From positions 1 to 45,456 of the forward strand of contig CANFQX010000021.1 of assembly GCA_947449255.1 (NCBI GenBank): DNA of 45,456 nt. Direction: 5' to 3'. Of the stretch, positions 31,354-44,341 are shown one piece after another; within the stretch, counting starts at the first letter, position 1, and every line of letters begins with the position of its first letter. A program made the position numbers and the translations under genes. This DNA is from Pseudobdellovibrionaceae bacterium (GTDB lineage: Bacteria > Bdellovibrionota > Bdellovibrionia > Bdellovibrionales > Bdellovibrionaceae). Below the pieces are notes generated by a model, which ran no database searches, was not told the origin of the DNA, and saw only the letters and a program-made list of their open reading frames with translations.

Positions 31354-31429
31354 GTTCCCATCGTCTAGGGGCCTAGGACACCTCCCTTTCACGGAGGATA
31401 CAGGGGTTCGAATCCCCTTGGGAACGCCA
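31354..31429 (+). tRNA. tRNA-Glu (anticodon TTC), island integration site
   Basis: 76 nt with encoded CCA. The acceptor stem GTTCCCA pairs with TGGGAAC, the anticodon stem CCTCC/GGAGG holds the loop CTTTCAC with anticodon TTC, and the T loop is GGTTCGAATCC. The last 21 nt (from 31409) belong to the attL core, so the tRNA remains intact after integration. Confidence 0.97.
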
Positions 31430-31435
31430 ATTTTT
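31409..31435 (+). repeat. attL of the island
   Basis: A 27-bp core shared exactly with attR, starting CGAATCCCCTTGGGAACG and ending in CCAATTTTT. It covers the T loop, the acceptor 3' strand and CCA of tRNA-Glu plus seven following bases. Confidence 0.92.
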
Positions 31436-31446
31436 CTTAAGTATTC

Positions 31447-31496
31447 AAAATCCAACAACATTTAAAGTGCAAGCAGACAAATGTTGTTGGGATTTT
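31447..31496. terminator. Long hairpin at the end of the integrase gene
   Basis: A nearly perfect inverted repeat (31447-31463 with 31479-31496; one bulged base in about 17 pairs, arms AAAATCC-AACAACATTT) with a 15-nt loop. It overlaps the last codons of the integrase and sits between tRNA-Glu and the convergent integrase. A T-rich flank exists on both sides, so it could act as a bidirectional terminator that replaces the original tRNA terminator. Confidence 0.6.
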
Positions 31497-32610
31497 GCTT
31501 GTTCTTATTTTCAATCCATCTATTTACTTCTAATCCTAAAGTTTGATTGCTCACATGAGAATAGCGATCTGTCGTACTCAGATCTTTATGACCCATGATC
31601 TCAGCAACAATGCGACGATTCATTCCTGTAGAATCTATATAACTACAGAAAGTATGCCGAAGACTGTGAAAGTTAATCTGTGGCAGCTGCGGGATCTTCT
31701 TTAAATCCTTCTGCAAAAGTCGACTAAAGTGTGATGGCTCCAAAGGCTCATGACCACCGAATACGAAGGGCCCTGTGGCACCTTGCTTCATTTCGAGTAT
31801 GAGAATGCGAAGCTCTGGAAAAATAGGGACCATTCGATTTTCACCATTTTTTGTCGTGTTGCGAATTTCACAAGTCTTCTGTGCGCATGTTCTGCAGACC
31901 TTTATAAAACCAATATGCGCCCCAGACTTCATATCTAAATGAACACAATCCCACTTTAAGGCCGACACCTCGCCGGCTCGCATGCCAGTCCATAGGGTAA
32001 ATCTCCACAAACGAATCCACTTGCTTTCTGATGCTGCATTTAAAAAGAAATTCATTTCCTTTTGATCCCAGAAGCGCGGCTCTTTGGCTTTATGCTTTGG
32101 GGTCCTTACAGATAAAATTCCGCTCATGGGCATGTAATCATCTTCGATCGCTTGTCTTAAAATCATTTTCAACAAGGTCACTGAACTATTCACATTATAA
32201 GTTGAAACTTTATTTCGCTGCAGTTCGGAAATATAATTTCTTAGATGCACTTTCTCCAGCTCTTGCAGCTTGTATGCTCCGAAAAATGGATTGATAAATC
32301 CTTTAATCAAGTCCCCGTACCGCCGAGCTGTTGCGCTCTCCACATCATTTCGAGCCTTCATATCAAGCCACTGGTGTGCATATTCAGAAACAGTAATTTT
32401 ACTATCACCTAAATGGCCCAGTTTATTTTTATTCAATAAGACCTTGGTGTACTCTGTACAAGCGAAGCTCATTGCGTGGGATTCTTCAATAAATCCACCT
32501 TCACGAATTTGACCGCCTCGTCCATCGGGAAGGACAACTTTCCAACGAGCACCTTTTTGGGTTTGATAAGATTTAACGTATTTTTTCACTTCTTTTTTTA
32601 ATTGCGCCAT
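31462..32610 (-). CDS. int: Tyrosine recombinase/integrase of the island
   Basis: This enzyme catalyses site-specific integration and excision at the tRNA-Glu site. The 382-residue protein has an N-terminal arm-binding segment, a core-binding SAM-like domain (about 71-165) and a catalytic domain with R211 (TGMRAGE), K254, H315-x-x-R318 (HSLRHTF), H341 (GHKD) and nucleophile Y350 (YSH), all present. Between the catalytic Arg and Lys it carries C239, C242 and C247, a possible metal-binding or disulphide insertion. The 3' end lies 27 bp from attL, as expected for a cognate integrase. Its last codons lie in a long hairpin. Confidence 0.95.
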   Translation of the reverse strand: MAQLKKEVKKYVKSYQTQKGARWKVVLPDGRGGQIREGGFIEESHAMSFACTEYTKVLLNKNKLGHLGDSKITVSEYAHQWLDMKARNDVESATARRYGDLIKGFINPFFGAYKLQELEKVHLRNYISELQRNKVSTYNVNSSVTLLKMILRQAIEDDYMPMSGILSVRTPKHKAKEPRFWDQKEMNFFLNAASESKWIRLWRFTLWTGMRAGEVSALKWDCVHLDMKSGAHIGFIKVCRTCAQKTCEIRNTTKNGENRMVPIFPELRILILEMKQGATGPFVFGGHEPLEPSHFSRLLQKDLKKIPQLPQINFHSLRHTFCSYIDSTGMNRRIVAEIMGHKDLSTTDRYSHVSNQTLGLEVNRWIENKNKQNPNNICLLAL

Positions 32611-35893: not shown

Positions 35894-36808
35894 ATGGCAA
35901 TTCCTGATTATCAAACTCTGATGTTGCCGCTTTTAAAATATGCGGCTCAAAAAAAACAAATCACGTTGCGAGATTGTGAAGAACATCTTTCAACTCTATT
36001 TGACCTGACCACAGAAGAACGAACCACTATGCTACCAAGTGGCAATCAACAGATAATGACGAATCGAGTGGGCTGGGCTAGGACATACCTCAAAAAGGCG
36101 GGGTTACTAAATTCACCAAAAAGGGGTCTATTTGAAATCAGCCAACGTGGCAGGGATCTTTTAGAAGAAAATCCAAATATAATAAATGTTAAACTTTTAA
36201 AAAGATATCCTGAATTTTTGGAATTTCAAAAACCCTCAGATGACAATGTTGAGGACAGCTCTGAATTAATGTTGAGTGTGATTTCCGAAAAAACTCCAGA
36301 GGAAAACTTATTAAGCTCTGTTCAAGAGTTAAGGTCAGCTTTAGAATCTGAGATGCTCGAAAGAGTCAAATCCTGCTCACCCCAATTCTTTGAGAGACTT
36401 GTTGTGGATGTATTAGTCAAGATGGGCTATGGCGGTTCGCTCAAGGAAGCCGGGAAAGCTATTGGACAAAGTGGAGATGAAGGGGTTGATGGCATTATTA
36501 ATGAAGATCGACTGGGCCTTGACGTAATCTACATACAAGCAAAAAGATGGGATAGTAATATAGGTCGCCCTGAAATTCAAAAATTTGCTGGAGCCCTGCA
36601 AGGAAAACGTGCACGTAAAGGTGTTTTCATCACGACAAGTGATTTCACGAGTGAGGCCAAGGACTTTGTTAAGCATATAGAATCGAAAATTATATTGCTC
36701 TCGGGTCGTCAATTAGCTTCACTAATGTGGGAGCATGGTGTTGGCGTTGGTGGCTCAATTATTTATGAAGTTAAACGAATAGATCAAGATTTTTTTACGG
36801 AATCATAA
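35894..36808 (+). CDS. Mrr-type restriction endonuclease
   Basis: A 304-residue two-domain protein. Residues about 1-110 match the Mrr N-terminal winged-helix domain (YQTLMLPLLKYAAQKKQITLRDCEEHL ... LLNSPKRGLFEISQRGRDLL). Residues about 163-290 match the Mrr catalytic domain of the PD-(D/E)xK fold: F-F-E-R-L (E167), GDEGVDGII (D199) and YIQAKRW (Q215-x-K217). Active-site residues look intact. Mrr enzymes cut methylated or otherwise modified foreign DNA (type IV restriction), so this is likely a defence gene of the island. It converges on the histidine-kinase gene with 32 bp between stops. Confidence 0.9.
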   Translation: MAIPDYQTLMLPLLKYAAQKKQITLRDCEEHLSTLFDLTTEERTTMLPSGNQQIMTNRVGWARTYLKKAGLLNSPKRGLFEISQRGRDLLEENPNIINVKLLKRYPEFLEFQKPSDDNVEDSSELMLSVISEKTPEENLLSSVQELRSALESEMLERVKSCSPQFFERLVVDVLVKMGYGGSLKEAGKAIGQSGDEGVDGIINEDRLGLDVIYIQAKRWDSNIGRPEIQKFAGALQGKRARKGVFITTSDFTSEAKDFVKHIESKIILLSGRQLASLMWEHGVGVGGSIIYEVKRIDQDFFTES

Positions 36809-36840: not shown

Positions 36841-38820
36841 TTAAAATGCGGGATACTTCCCCACTACACCCGTTACAAACACTGGCGCTGTGAGTGAACT
36901 GGGTTCATAACCTGTTGCAATGTATATTCTCTTAAACCCAAGGTTTGAAACAGCCTCGGCAAGAATCTCGCCTTTGCCTTCAGCACCCAAATTTGAATCA
37001 ATGTAGATTGGCGACGCTAAATCAATTTTCGAGGCCTCCACCATAAAATCCGCCATCTTATTAAAAGACTTTATCGATTTATTATTTTCACTAGCGTACA
37101 GGGACCATGTCATATGGTTTAAGGATTCATCATCTATCAGCACACAGTCATATTTTTCTTTTTCGGGCTCGATCTCGATGGGCACAAAGCCTGCCATATT
37201 TTTTGGAATCATCTTAATCCCGAGCGCTGAGCATCGGCTGCGTATATGTGGTTCATCATATCTGCTTGTCACTAAAATCACTTGATTGTTCGTCTTAGAA
37301 CTTAGATTTAGCTCATCAATAATATCCAAACCCGTTTGTGATTGATTAAGTAATTCAAAATCAATCAGAAACAACACCCTCTCTGACAAACTTGACTTTA
37401 ACCCTTGGACGTATTTTTTAAACTCTACACCTGATGTAAAATTCAGCAGTTCAGGCTGCTTTGCGCCTATGTTGATACTTTCTAATCTTCCACGCCAAAT
37501 TCCATGTATAGACATATCATCGTCCAAAGAAATAATCTTTTGAAGCGGCTGCAAAGATAAATTAGGCTGAAACCAAGCTGGCGAATCCACTATCGGAAAA
37601 TTCATCACCATCAGTGTCCCTTCACCAACTTTAGAATTGATCTGAAACTGTCCACCAAAAGATTCTATGGTGGATTTTGCATGCCACACACCCAATCCAC
37701 TTCCAGATTGTGTTCCATCTTTTCCATGAGTGACACCCCGTTCGCCAAGCTTTGCAAGAATTTCTGGGGGAATACCCTTCCCATTGTCCTGAACGACAAT
37801 CGACACTTTATCGCCATATTTGCGCAAACAGACAGCGACCCTACCATGACCATCAGTAAAAGCTTCAACTGAATTGTTAATCAAATTCGAAAGGACCCTT
37901 GAAAACTCGTTGACATTTAAATTTACAAAAACACCATAGGACTGATTTATATCAGCTTCGATTTGAACACCAACTCTGTCACGAAAATGAATCCGCTTTT
38001 CAGAAACTATTGCATCTATCAAAGTTGGAAGCAGAACAAACTCACTTTTTGAATTCCCAATTTTAGATTGGCCGTCAGTTATACCACTTGAGGCTTCATT
38101 ACTGTGGCTTGATTCACTGACTTTGCTTTTTGCAAGAAGGTCATTGGCGATGTCGTTGATTCGTTGAATTGAGTTTCTAATTAGGATTCGTTTTTCCTCT
38201 GGCACATTTGTTAGGGTTGACGAGATCATATTTAGTGCTGACAACGGTGATCTTATGTCGTGGGCTACTTGGGAAGCTAGCTGTGATGCAACTTCAAGTT
38301 CTTTTTGATGGATAACAAGGGTGTGGCGTTCTGCCAGTCTTATTCTGGAACGTCTTAAGAATTGTGAAAAAGCAAAGAACAAGGCAACGGATATTAAAAT
38401 ACAAATCATCAACGGTGTAAAGATTGAGTAATAAAAAGTAGTCGATGCCACAATAGCACCAGTAGCGTCATCAACAGTTAAGTTTTGAACGATTGATGCA
38501 GTCATTATACTTTTAGCATTTCTCTTGATTGATTCGTCTGTAGGTATCTGAAGTATTACTTCTTTTTTATGGTTCATTACTACAACACCATAAAATCCAT
38601 CATCAATAGCAGGAGCAAGTGACGACAAAGTCTGTCTGTAATCTCTTATCACAATGCTGTTTCTTGATGCAAATGAATATGACCTAGCCAATTTTTCTTG
38701 TGTAGAATAGTGAAATAAAATTACCGCTGCAGAAGCAGTTACCGCCACCAAAAGATATCCGAGTTTAAAAACCAAATTTAGTGACTTTATTTCTTTTGCT
38801 AAGGAATCGGTCTTACTCAT
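36841..38820 (-). CDS. Hybrid sensor histidine kinase with two receiver domains
   Basis: 659 residues: membrane helix (about 19-37), short extracytoplasmic sensor (about 38-133), second helix (about 134-155), HisKA with phospho-acceptor H187 (SQVAHDIRSPLS), HATPase with N box (NLINNSVEA, about 312-320), G1 (DNGKGI) and G2 (GSGLGVWHA), then two receiver domains. The first has D487 (LIDFEL) and K540 (IPKNM). The second has LIDDES, D608 (IYIDSN) and a Lys in GKYP near the C-terminus. Both look competent. Start: AGGAG 8 bases upstream of ATG. It is the last gene of the YcaO operon, 11 bp after YcaO. No separate output regulator lies nearby. Confidence 0.93.
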   Translation of the reverse strand: MSKTDSLAKEIKSLNLVFKLGYLLVAVTASAAVILFHYSTQEKLARSYSFASRNSIVIRDYRQTLSSLAPAIDDGFYGVVVMNHKKEVILQIPTDESIKRNAKSIMTASIVQNLTVDDATGAIVASTTFYYSIFTPLMICILISVALFFAFSQFLRRSRIRLAERHTLVIHQKELEVASQLASQVAHDIRSPLSALNMISSTLTNVPEEKRILIRNSIQRINDIANDLLAKSKVSESSHSNEASSGITDGQSKIGNSKSEFVLLPTLIDAIVSEKRIHFRDRVGVQIEADINQSYGVFVNLNVNEFSRVLSNLINNSVEAFTDGHGRVAVCLRKYGDKVSIVVQDNGKGIPPEILAKLGERGVTHGKDGTQSGSGLGVWHAKSTIESFGGQFQINSKVGEGTLMVMNFPIVDSPAWFQPNLSLQPLQKIISLDDDMSIHGIWRGRLESINIGAKQPELLNFTSGVEFKKYVQGLKSSLSERVLFLIDFELLNQSQTGLDIIDELNLSSKTNNQVILVTSRYDEPHIRSRCSALGIKMIPKNMAGFVPIEIEPEKEKYDCVLIDDESLNHMTWSLYASENNKSIKSFNKMADFMVEASKIDLASPIYIDSNLGAEGKGEILAEAVSNLGFKRIYIATGYEPSSLTAPVFVTGVVGKYPAF

Positions 38821-38831
38821 CTCAATAGCTC

Positions 38832-39809
38832 CTAATTAAAAGGGTGAGGGAGTTTATTCACATCTGAAAGTTTTATTTGTTTTTTTGCAAACTCCTCAAG
38901 TCTCTTAAGATTTATTGCCGAATCTTGAGGTGAACCTAAAAATATGTTTTGCGCATTTTGCGAAATGGCTTTTGCAAAATAAAAAGGACAACCATCTTTG
39001 GTCCAAGAAAGATCGAAAATATTTACTTCGTAAGGACTCAGTTCATTATATGGATAAACAAAGCCAGACGCCTCTTTTTTAGAAAACAATGGCGCTATTT
39101 GATTTGCATAATCAATATTTAATGCCAACTCACCATGATCCTTAAAATCAGGTTTGTTAATCTGACAAAACTGATTCAATGAAATACCTTTTCCATTGTT
39201 GTCTCTTCGAATAAAATAGGCCTGTCTAAGACTTTCAATAGTTGCTGAAATTGCTGCGACCTCTAAATCTTCCTTATAACTAGACCCAATAATAAATCCG
39301 ATTTTGTTTTTTGATTCAAGACCGTCAATCGCACATAAAATTCCAAAATTACCAAGAATGTAATATCTAATCCGCAAATCTAGAGTGCAAATCAAACTTT
39401 CAATTTTGGGTAGCCATTTCCAACCTATTTTTTTATCATCTGCAATTGGAATAAATTCTGAATTACTCAAGAAGTGACAAAAAAACAAATCCCTCTCAAT
39501 CAATTCAAACATGGCATTTTGCCGAGCTTTATCTGGAGATAGGTGCGCTGCAAAACCATTAGATGTGGGGCTGCCGTCCTGCTGCAGCACCTCGCGCTCT
39601 GTAGCCTCTGAAAATGCTTTCAAGAGGGCTATATCTGCTGTTTCTGATGCTCCCCAAGAAGTTATTTCATTTCCATTAATATTGAGAGTACAGCAGACAT
39701 CTGTCCACCCGGGGAATGCTTTTTCTATCCAGGACATTGTTTGAATTTTAAGTTGGTACTCCTGACTATGTTCTAAAAGCCAAGCTAACGCTATTGTCTC
39801 ATTCGCCAT
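38832..39809 (-). CDS. YcaO-domain protein (ATP-dependent peptide modification type)
   Basis: YcaO enzymes activate peptide backbone amides with ATP, making azolines, thioamides or amidines. Numbering is from the ATG at 39809, chosen for its AGGA site at good spacing; a GTG at 39851 would add 14 residues. The 325-residue protein has the ATP/Mg motifs AFSEATERE (E68, E71, R72), MFELIERD (E102, E105) and ATIESLRQ (E192, R195), and TSNGFAAHLSPDKA of the fold. The C-terminus ends PHPFN, close to the PxPxP tail of azoline-forming members. It overlaps the upstream solute-binding gene by 19 bp and precedes the kinase. Neither an E1-like partner nor a dehydrogenase is present. Function is inferred. 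Confidence 0.85.
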   Translation of the reverse strand: MANETIALAWLLEHSQEYQLKIQTMSWIEKAFPGWTDVCCTLNINGNEITSWGASETADIALLKAFSEATEREVLQQDGSPTSNGFAAHLSPDKARQNAMFELIERDLFFCHFLSNSEFIPIADDKKIGWKWLPKIESLICTLDLRIRYYILGNFGILCAIDGLESKNKIGFIIGSSYKEDLEVAAISATIESLRQAYFIRRDNNGKGISLNQFCQINKPDFKDHGELALNIDYANQIAPLFSKKEASGFVYPYNELSPYEVNIFDLSWTKDGCPFYFAKAISQNAQNIFLGSPQDSAINLKRLEEFAKKQIKLSDVNKLPHPFN

Positions 39810-41428
39810 AACTGATTTCCTGCTATGAATGGTAAAAAATTTAGTTTCCACTTTTTATTCCCAAAGGCCATATAAGAGCTCACTGTGATGGGATAGATCA
39901 CACCTTGTTTTAATAATTCAAAATGAAAAGCTCGAAGCTTTTGGCGCCTTATCTCGATATTTTCTGTATGAATATACTCACTAAGCCATTTTTCCTTATT
40001 AAAATCAGATAAATGAAAAATACCCGCTGCAAAATTGTGCCCCAATAAAGAGATATTTTCATTCCATGCTGAGTCAGTTTGGATTAGGTATGTGTCTAGA
40101 CGCTCCTCTAATGGTAAAAGAAATGCAGCCGTCGAACGATCAACGACATCAACTTCAAATTTATCTTTAAGTTGATGCTTATAGTGATCATAACTCCCGG
40201 GATTTGTTGCGAATCTAATTTGATTGCTGAAAAGATCTGATGATGGGTTATTTCTCAAAGTTTTTATGATTTCCTTTTGATCCTCATCAAGGTTCCCATC
40301 ACTCACTCCTTGAAAGAACTCAAAAGTATCTTTACTACCAGGTGCCACAGTTCGTGCTTTGAATGCGTCTGCTATTGACTTACCAACTTGCATCCGTTGT
40401 TCGATAGAAAAATTCTTAATAGCATTAGGAGTGAAGCAAAGTAATGTAACCTTAATAGGAATCGTTTGGAAAGAGTTAAAACGGTCAGGTGAATCATAAA
40501 CTTCCTGGGCATTTTTGCCCCAAGTTAAACCCAAAAAAGTAGGCAAGAGGTCAATTTTGTCTTTGAGTAATAATTCATATGCATTGGCATAAGTAGCAGG
40601 TATCAAATGCACTTCCTGGGGCATCTCTGTTGTGAATTTTGAATTGAATTTATTTGCCCTTAGAACCCAAGAGCCATCCGCCGCATCTTTTGCGACATAA
40701 TAAGGTCCGGTTGCATTGCTAAATGATTTGATTGGTAACTTGTGTGAGGTAAAATCGATATTCGTTTTACTGATAACACTAAAATCAGCACTCTCTAGGA
40801 AAGGCAATAGGAAGGCAGAGATCTTTTCTTCCACAGGAGTTAAGATAAGTTTATTACCATCTAGTTTAACCCCAGGACAATCATCTTCAATAGTATTTAA
40901 AATATGACCTGGACATAGGAAACTGCGTAGGTCGCCATGCCCAGTCTTTCTTAAATAAATTGCGCGTTTGATTGAATAATACGCATCTTCTGCCGTAATT
41001 AACTCCCCTTTACTTGTTTTATGTTTATTTCCAAATTCAAAAACAAGGTTGTTGCTATCCCAATAAAAAGTATCAGCCAAATCTGCCACTAATTGTTGAT
41101 TTGCATCGTATTGAACAAGTCGACCATAAAGGTAATCCACAAACTCATACTCTTCCAAGCTACCAATATCCGCAGGATCTAAATCCAACACAGACCTATC
41201 TAGGTTACTTCCTACACGTAAAGGTTCTTGTGGTTTCTTAATATTCACTAAGGCCTCCGAGCCGAGAATTAACAGTGTAAGACCAACTACGATTTTTAAT
41301 AAATTAACTCGGCATACACCTATTTTTTTCACTTGAAACAACCTTTTTTTAGTCCATGTCGTTCTTTTTGCGACAACCACCTGTTGTTCTTTGGCAACTG
41401 GACATTGCCATAGGGTCAACTGATTCAT
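39791..41428 (-). CDS. Membrane-anchored family 5 solute-binding protein
   Basis: 545 residues: a 42-residue basic cytoplasmic N-terminus, one membrane helix (about 43-61), then a periplasmic SBP_bac_5 domain, the family that binds peptides for Opp/Dpp ABC transporters (LRVGSNLDRSVLDLDPADIG... LYGRLVQYDANQQLVADLADTFYWDS is the usual N-terminal lobe pattern). It is unusual in being anchored by an uncleaved helix and in having no permease or ATPase genes beside it. The annotated ATG lacks a ribosome site, so the true start may be a downstream GTG. It follows the small exported peptide gene by 34 bp, and YcaO overlaps its end. Confidence 0.85.
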   Translation of the reverse strand: MNQLTLWQCPVAKEQQVVVAKRTTWTKKRLFQVKKIGVCRVNLLKIVVGLTLLILGSEALVNIKKPQEPLRVGSNLDRSVLDLDPADIGSLEEYEFVDYLYGRLVQYDANQQLVADLADTFYWDSNNLVFEFGNKHKTSKGELITAEDAYYSIKRAIYLRKTGHGDLRSFLCPGHILNTIEDDCPGVKLDGNKLILTPVEEKISAFLLPFLESADFSVISKTNIDFTSHKLPIKSFSNATGPYYVAKDAADGSWVLRANKFNSKFTTEMPQEVHLIPATYANAYELLLKDKIDLLPTFLGLTWGKNAQEVYDSPDRFNSFQTIPIKVTLLCFTPNAIKNFSIEQRMQVGKSIADAFKARTVAPGSKDTFEFFQGVSDGNLDEDQKEIIKTLRNNPSSDLFSNQIRFATNPGSYDHYKHQLKDKFEVDVVDRSTAAFLLPLEERLDTYLIQTDSAWNENISLLGHNFAAGIFHLSDFNKEKWLSEYIHTENIEIRRQKLRAFHFELLKQGVIYPITVSSYMAFGNKKWKLNFLPFIAGNQLWRMRQ

Positions 41429-41462
41429 GAATAGTCTGGTAGTTTTTCAAAATTTCCATTAC

Positions 41463-41654
41463 TCATCCGTTGATCTGCATTTTACCTGTGTTATCAACTC
41501 TGACAAATCCTTCTTGAATCATGCCTGCCAAAAGATCAGCAGCTTTCAATTGTTCTTCCATTGATTGGGCATGGGTATATGTTGGGCTACCATGAGCAGT
41601 AATTGCCGTAAGTATGAATCCCAATGTACTTAGAATTAAACGTTTCTCTGTCAT
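41463..41654 (-). CDS. Small exported peptide, candidate YcaO-operon precursor
   Basis: 63 residues from the ATG at 41654 (GGAG 7 bases upstream); an in-frame ATG at 41747 has no ribosome site. A signal peptide (MTEKRLILSTLGFILTAITA) leaves a mature part of about 35 residues: an amphipathic helix (EEQLKAADLLAGMIQEGF) and the tail VRVDNTGKMQING. No similar family is known to me. It is the first gene of the peptide/SBP/YcaO/kinase operon, so it may be a signal, substrate or accessory peptide. It is poor in Cys, Ser and Thr, so a classical azoline core is not evident. Confidence 0.6.
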   Translation of the reverse strand: MTEKRLILSTLGFILTAITAHGSPTYTHAQSMEEQLKAADLLAGMIQEGFVRVDNTGKMQING

Positions 41655-42016
41655 ACAAAACTCCTTCAGGGCTAAAAAATTCCCCTTAATTGGTTTAATG
41701 GCGCTGCAATTCTTGGTGGAAAAAATTTCCCTATAAACCCAACTCAACGCCTACTAATAAATCCCATTGCGAAGCCTATGCCAACGCCGAATATTTGTTT
41801 ATTTAGATTTGACAAGAAAAGACTGACTAGGGAATTTACATAATGCTGACAATTTTAGGCCTGCCGCTGTTTTCAACAATTACAGAACTTAGAGACATCG
41901 GCGGGTATTTTGGGATATCTAATTGGAATCAATATGCCGGCTTCCTCGGTATGCTTTTGAATTGAAGCGAGTCAATCCGTTGGACCTTAAGGACGAATTG
42001 ACCTTTAGAATTACCC

Positions 42017-44146: not shown

Positions 44147-44341
44147 ATGTTGGAATTTTGCTTACTGCTCGCAACAATTCACAACAATATACACCTATTG
44201 GCACCGCTTTTTATGGTTTTTTTGGGCTTGGAATTATCAACTAAATTATTGTTACTGTTGGTTTTTATTTGTTTACTTGCTGTTCATTCTATTTTGTCAT
44301 TAGCGAATCCCCTTGGGAACGCCAATTTTTTCGAATACTAA
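44147..44341 (+). CDS. Possible small membrane protein crossing attR
   Basis: 64 residues, almost entirely hydrophobic, with two likely membrane helices (about 1-30 and 32-54). AGGA 7 bases before the ATG gives a good ribosome site. Its last codons read through the attR core and stop just outside the island (after FFEY), so the C-terminus depends on integration. It may be a genuine small membrane peptide of the island or chance coding in AT-rich DNA. Confidence 0.3.
   Translation: MLEFCLLLATIHNNIHLLAPLFMVFLGLELSTKLLLLLVFICLLAVHSILSLANPLGNANFFEY
44304..44330 (+). repeat. attR of the island
   Basis: An exact 27-bp copy of attL, here without the rest of a tRNA (flanked by CATTAG upstream instead of T-stem sequence). 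It marks the right end of the island. Confidence 0.92.

Follow-up and report, generated by a model that had tools for sequence, protein, structure and literature searches.

A conserved precursor, solute-binding protein, YcaO and histidine kinase cassette of Bdellovibrionota as a candidate for modified-peptide signalling

Introduction

Peptide pheromones are best known from Gram-positive bacteria, and we know of no pheromone that is modified by a YcaO enzyme. In the Agr and ComX systems, a precursor, its modifying enzyme (AgrB or ComQ), a histidine kinase (HK) and a response regulator (RR) are encoded in one operon. In LuxP-LuxQ, a periplasmic solute-binding protein (SBP) presents the signal to a hybrid kinase. 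In the pheromone system of the Enterococcus plasmid pCF10 (peptides cCF10/iCF10), the binding protein PrgZ cooperates with a permease, and cytoplasmic PrgX serves as the receptor (PMC6540685). YcaO enzymes that stand alone, without an E1-like C protein, include the bottromycin D proteins (PMC4603692) and ItfB of Bacteroidetes, which forms an amidine and modifies its peptide at the C-terminal end (PMC10352776). Here, we analyse an operon of a Pseudobdellovibrionaceae bacterium which encodes a precursor-like peptide, a peptide-type SBP, a YcaO enzyme and an HK, and which probably belongs to a family of modified-peptide signalling cassettes. It lies in the window, i.e., the whole stretch of 45,456 nucleotides that was analysed (assembly GCA_947449255.1, contig CANFQX010000021.1, positions 1 to 45,456, forward strand).

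A first-pass annotation of the window had named no described system with this gene set. We likewise found no description of it in the open-access literature, a scope that leaves out most subscription journals, and in the same literature no peptide communication system described in predatory Bdellovibrionota.

Results

Operon layout

The operon consists of four open reading frames (ORFs), all on the minus strand, and a promoter-like site:

41768..41784, minus strand: sigma-54-like -24/-12 site TTGGCATAGGCTTCGCA, 130 bp upstream of the precursor start (score 15.1, shuffle p 0.01)
41349..41654, minus strand: precursor-peptide ORF, ATG 41654, Shine-Dalgarno GAAGGAG, Sec-like N-terminal signal
39791..41332, minus strand: membrane-anchored, OppA-like (family 5) SBP, 513 aa from GTG 41332
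38832..39809, minus strand: stand-alone YcaO enzyme, ~325 aa, starting ATG GCG AAT GAG, with Glu/Arg signature and C-terminal NxxPHPxx
36841..38820, minus strand: membrane HK (HisKA + HATPase_c) with two C-terminal receiver-like segments (by eye)

The end of the SBP gene shares 19 bp with the YcaO gene, and the HK begins 11 bp past YcaO, in agreement with the coordinates first annotated. GTG 41332, directly behind the precursor ORF and nine bases downstream of AAAAAAAGG, is the more likely SBP start. The longest-ORF start at 41428 was rejected: it runs into the precursor frame, and the 32 residues that it adds have a predicted local distance difference test score (pLDDT) below 50. The genome (G000; 3.2 Mb, 34 contigs) contains rpoN and a single YcaO gene, the one at this locus.

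Conservation of the cassette

A search of the order with the window YcaO gave matches in 36 of 141 genomes. The YcaO family profile matched 120 of the 369 genomes of the phylum, where weak matches may include other YcaOs. At the YcaO loci of the order, an SBP is present in 47/50 and an HK in 48/50. Forty further loci come mostly from other classes or families of the phylum, and an SBP stands beside YcaO in 32 of them (hand count). In 44 loci, the SBP has a short neighbouring ORF whose N-terminus is Sec-like. The co-occurrence of SBP_bac_5, YcaO and HK and the conserved short ORF, both of which the first-pass annotation had proposed to look for, are present, and the lack of a conserved neighbourhood, which it had named as a refutation, is not what the homologous loci show. 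The genes are arranged in one of two orders, [RR]-peptide-SBP-YcaO-HK and YcaO-peptide-SBP-HK-RR, where RR is an NtrC-type regulator; hence, the content is kept and the order is not. The distance matrices of SBP, YcaO, HK and RR correlate with r 0.73-0.91, a value reached by none of 500 permutations, which indicates that these genes diverge as a unit. In favour of a chance neighbourhood of unrelated genes, there is nothing except that the window itself offers few genes. A neighbourhood that recurs in dozens of loci across the phylum, with trees that co-vary at r 0.82-0.91, refutes this explanation, to which we give next to no credence.

Strong matches to an alignment of type-B YcaOs among GTDB contigs were restricted to Bdellovibrionota-like metagenome-assembled genomes (MAGs), and three weaker ones under other names (L174, L177, L178) lack the operon. 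The same contigs searched with a single window protein gave no match, nor did IMG/VR viral contigs, and a plasmid search gave weak SBP matches only and no YcaO. One MAG labelled Streptomyces griseus holds two typical Bdellovibrionota cassettes, L166 (CALQIT020000011) and L170 (CALQIT020000009). This label looks wrong, and a whole-genome search puts the MAG (G029) in the family of the window. A second, different YcaO context is formed by more distant YcaOs of the phylum without SBP neighbours (L131, L135, L140, L142, L147, L149, L154 and L155).

YcaO enzyme

The window YcaO matches Pfam PF02624 (1.8e-7; 31.3 bits, cut-off 25.7), and the family profile matches seven solved YcaO sequences, including MJ1094, McbD, TruD and LynD. 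E66, R70, E100, E103, R104 and E190 are invariant among 35 members, and the second ExxER with the following Glu aligns with MJ1094, McbD and TruD. Loss of the ATP-binding residues, which would have spoken against the function first proposed, is not seen on alignment, as the signature is intact. The structural model (pLDDT 91.7) matches LynD and the AMP-bound E. coli YcaO. Many members carry a C-terminal NxxPHPxx, which recalls the C-terminal PxPxP of azoline-forming YcaOs. We predict that YcaOs of this family activate an amide in an ATP-dependent manner.

In the neighbourhood survey, no gene for an E1-like protein, a recognition element (RRE) of ribosomally synthesized and post-translationally modified peptides (RiPPs) or a dehydrogenase recurs near the loci, nor does one for an exporter, permease, immunity pump or protease. 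This extends to the relatives what had been noted for the window, where E1-like partner, dehydrogenase and exporter are lacking. Compared with thiazole/oxazole-modified microcins, the cassette thus has neither the E1-like C protein or RRE nor the usual dehydrogenase; a neighbouring precursor with a Cys/Ser/Thr core is found in the relatives and is broken by a TGA in the window.

Precursor family

The short ORFs, picked by hand from their position and signal sequence and not by Cys, are strongly diverged overall. Of the 40 non-redundant ORFs, 33 have Cys among their last 15 residues, usually once per tail, and Cys accounts for 6.5% of the tail residues versus 1.0% of the body (odds ratio 7.1, p 1e-13). 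The tails are likewise enriched in Gly, Ser and Thr. Typical ends are SSICY, TTICVGASGGITK, RGGTICF, KTGTICV, PSCWTK, GGTSCYAR and GASCG, and endings of the form [S/T]-I-C or P-S-[C/S] recur among otherwise diverged ORFs. In L057, L059 and L066, P-S-C becomes P-S-S; Ser in place of Cys fits what a cyclodehydratase allows. A tail of Gly, Ser, Thr and Cys would match the expectation for a YcaO substrate. The precursor of L079 (10058-10540, minus strand) is internally duplicated, with blocks ...DSRDCLQFDG... and ...DSKECMQFDG....

Solute-binding protein and kinase

A Pfam search with the window SBP sequence alone gave no match. The SBP family profile matches OppA (1e-30), AapF and PrgZ (5e-17), the pheromone-binding protein of pCF10, and relatives match SBP_bac_5. 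The AlphaFold model (pLDDT 89) matches MppA, OppA and NikA (E 1e-22 to 1e-24). The description as a membrane-anchored family-5 SBP without permease agrees with profile, model and relatives, and no cognate ABC permease recurs beside the SBP.

For the HK, annotated as a kinase with two receivers, Pfam detects HisKA and HATPase_c and finds no receiver in the two C-terminal segments of the window protein, where the Asp/Thr/Lys pattern was seen by eye only. One relative matches Response_reg weakly (8e-4).

As OppA-like SBPs bind varied peptides, the SBP-HK pair might instead sense environmental or prey peptides. YcaO would then act on another protein or on an SBP/HK partner, and the short ORF would be a periplasmic accessory subunit, a role that would suit those which are long (160-170 aa; L058, L122) or without tail Cys. 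The Cys enrichment of the tails and the recurring ends in diverged ORFs argue against this explanation, as does a YcaO in nearly every copy, which prey sensing would not need. We consider it improbable.

Regulator, sigma-54 sites and conjugation genes

An output regulator, reported missing by the first-pass annotation, is indeed absent beside the window copy and is encoded in the operons of many relatives. This ~465-aa partner consists of a receiver and a sigma-54 AAA+ activator (NtrC-type RR) and is present, in the same operon, in about half of the loci of the order. The genes adjoining RR-bearing loci belong to an F-type type IV secretion system (T4SS), with a strong match for TraC/VirB4 and weak ones for TrbC-like pilin, TraL and TrbL. 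VirB4 lies within 20 kb of 27 of the 64 YcaO loci of the order, versus 1.6 expected. All 27 carry the RR, and no RR-less locus is near VirB4. Linkage to a conjugative T4SS, as in pheromone-controlled conjugation, is therefore a property of the RR-bearing relatives and not of the window copy.

A -24/-12 site scoring at least 10 precedes 29/74 operons versus 6/116 control genes (p 5e-9; shuffles 0.9%). In eight loci, tra genes follow the operon, and in seven of these (L040, L053, L060, L069, L072, L075 and L076; the exception is L051) the best site within 500 bp is found 44-87 bp ahead of the first gene on the tra side. Four of these sites reach a shuffle p ≤0.05 in a pattern spotted post hoc, and the tra-side sites are suggestive only.

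Over 9.5 kb, cassette and T4SS genes included, the DNA of L057 is 94.9% identical to that of L066. The two loci come from different families and have a purA identity of 66%, which points to recent transfer between families. Several loci encode small zinc-ribbon-like proteins of about 70-120 aa between the signalling operon and the T4SS genes, namely L040, L053, L060, L069, L072, L075 and L076 (clusters c11, c13) and L052, L057, L062 and L066 (c12).

Sigma-54 sites at the operon fronts fit autoinduction, as in autoinduced bacteriocin operons. The modified peptide could accordingly be an antimicrobial of the azole microcin type, with SBP-HK serving self-sensing or immunity. The YcaO relatives McbD, TruD and LynD yield toxins or natural products, and the tails are rich in Cys, Ser, Thr and Gly. 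However, no exporter, immunity pump, protease or E1/dehydrogenase recurs, a Sec signal being present instead; a tail usually holds one Cys; and the RR-bearing branch adjoins conjugation genes, not transport genes. We think this alternative unlikely.

Interrupted precursor of the window

The precursor frame of the window contains an in-frame TGA at 41465-41463, with 63 codons before it and 37 after it, and ends with TAA at 41351-41349. The 37-codon continuation reads VMEILKNYQTIHESVDPMAMSSCQRTTGGCRKKNDMD and stops right where the SBP begins. The C-terminal tail of the ORF is ...AMSSCQRTTGGCRKKNDMD. As the TGA lies ahead of the tail, the 63-residue exported peptide of the first-pass annotation, whose Sec-like signal is present, is the N-terminal part of an interrupted precursor of ~100 aa. 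Each half is similar to the precursors of L031, L032 and L033, the nearest relatives (shuffle p 0.001-0.025), and in all three Ser stands at the TGA position. The TGA may reflect a nonsense mutation or an error of sequencing, or translation may terminate there and re-initiate at TGA GTA ATG. Selenocysteine was rejected, as the three relatives carry Ser there and the window genome has no tRNA-Sec, the best match being a tRNA-Ser.

Genomic island

The window copy is island cargo. The truncation of the precursor, the island and the link to conjugation had all gone unmentioned in the first annotation. The boundaries and further features of the island are:

31409..31435, plus strand: attL, 27-bp direct repeat at the 3' end of tRNA-Glu (31354-31429)
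44304..44330, plus strand: attR, second repeat copy, 100% identical to attL (island of ~12.9 kb)
31462..32610, minus strand: tyrosine integrase (Phage_integrase 1.5e-19)
35894..36808, plus strand: Mrr type IV restriction enzyme, carried by the island and convergent with the operon

With an integrase beside a tRNA gene and direct repeats, the island has the features of a tRNA-targeted integrative element. It further encodes an HTH_17 excisionase-like protein and DUF3987. The island genes apart from the operon do not travel with the operon elsewhere, except for Mrr in L079, whose enzyme is 59% identical to that of the window. Outside the island, at the contig end (44761-45438), lies the C-terminal part of another HK (HATPase_c), and the N-terminus of this ORF is repetitive (IGWIPLMQLGGSRFMQF).

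The window copy belongs to the RR-less branch, and its signal is possibly silenced. It may have lost or split its signal peptide through the in-frame TGA, in which case it could be in decay or serve as a receiver alone. We give even chances to the explanation, compatible with modified-peptide signalling in the relatives, that this copy is dead or that its SBP-HK answers, if at all, the peptides of other strains. The TGA between two halves which both match related precursors, the genome without tRNA-Sec, the missing adjoining RR and the absence of VirB4 of the T4SS family from the genome favour it. On the other side, the SBP, YcaO and HK frames are unbroken for more than 3.9 kb, which speaks for a loss in the recent past, an error in the assembly or re-initiation at TGA-GTA-ATG.

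Discussion

The conserved neighbourhood, the Cys-tailed exported ORF, the intact YcaO residues, the co-varying trees and the RR in the operon together support, at the level of sequence, the hypothesis of the first-pass annotation that a peptide is the substrate of YcaO, the ligand of the SBP, or both, and that the information passes to the kinase. Several observations weigh against modified-peptide signalling. No leader-binding partner (RRE or E1-like) is present through which YcaO might select its substrate, and peptides modified in the cytoplasm do not usually carry a Sec signal. The precursors were selected by hand, and some tails are free of Cys (L132 GGTGGHGA, L134 KGGGGA, and L141), so that an azoline is not the sole possible product. 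The cassette lies within 20 kb of 27 of 94 VirB4 genes; the other 67 are without it, and hence most conjugation systems of this VirB4 family do without the cassette. The sigma-54 signal is weaker before tra genes than before the operon. As for the window copy, it lacks both RR and T4SS, and a TGA breaks its precursor. On balance, we still hold that modified-peptide signalling is the probable function of the cassette.

The gene content of the cassette, its conservation and co-variation, the composition of the tails, the proximity to T4SS genes, the enrichment of promoter-like sites and the limits of the island are direct observations. From these, we infer the following course, which leads from peptide modification through export, binding and phosphotransfer to the control of conjugation. 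A precursor of ~50-170 aa with a Sec signal would be made, and YcaO would activate an amide of the backbone within its C-terminal Gly/Ser/Thr/Cys tail, with a Cys or Ser azoline as the likeliest product. The precursor would then be exported and cut, which would free a short modified C-terminal peptide. In the periplasm, this peptide would be captured by the anchored OppA-like SBP, which has no permease and would signal to the membrane HK instead. In the larger branch, the HK would phosphorylate the NtrC-type RR of the same operon, and RR and sigma-54 would drive their own operon (autoinduction) and probably also the adjacent F-type conjugation genes. The outcome would be a modified-peptide mating pheromone in Gram-negative bacteria. 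The window copy is one of the RR-less branch and is carried by a small integrative island.

Taken further, the cassettes could form a new class of quorum sensing, in which YcaO-modified pheromones (azoline, thioamide or amidine) are sensed by an OppA-like SBP and an HK. This class would be centred on Bdellovibrionota, spread by mobile elements and in control of conjugation via sigma-54, with island-borne, receiver-only eavesdroppers. We put this proposal forward tentatively, at slightly less than even chances in its full extent. The function is so far predicted; its demonstration would make the cassette a new class of peptide-pheromone signalling. The cassette is a concrete and testable candidate: a name can be put to precursors, modifying enzyme, receptor, kinase and regulator as well as to the probable target genes, and many natural tail variants exist for comparison. 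If true, the proposal would account for the YcaO genes scattered across the phylum and for how some conjugative elements of the phylum might time their transfer.

Among stand-alone YcaO RiPP pathways, the bottromycin D proteins and ItfB resemble the cassette in having YcaO without an E1-like C protein; unlike the cassette, their clusters hold other tailoring enzymes or peptidase-containing exporters, and we know of no such pathway with SBP, kinase and RR. LuxP-LuxQ shares the periplasmic SBP without permease and the membrane kinase. LuxP, however, is a sugar-type SBP which binds AI-2, whereas the cassette has a peptide-type SBP, its own precursor and a YcaO. Agr and ComX likewise combine precursor, modifying enzyme, HK and RR in one operon, but in the cassette YcaO replaces AgrB or ComQ, the SBP is a likely co-receptor, the output is NtrC-type and the host is Gram-negative. 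With pCF10, the cassette has in common a short peptide from a larger precursor, an OppA-family binder and the linkage to a conjugative T4SS. Unlike pCF10, it has no permease, contains an HK, a sigma-54 RR and a YcaO, and occurs in Gram-negative bacteria. The nearest working analogues are thus pCF10 (PrgZ), Agr/ComX and LuxPQ, and the cassette belongs to none of them.

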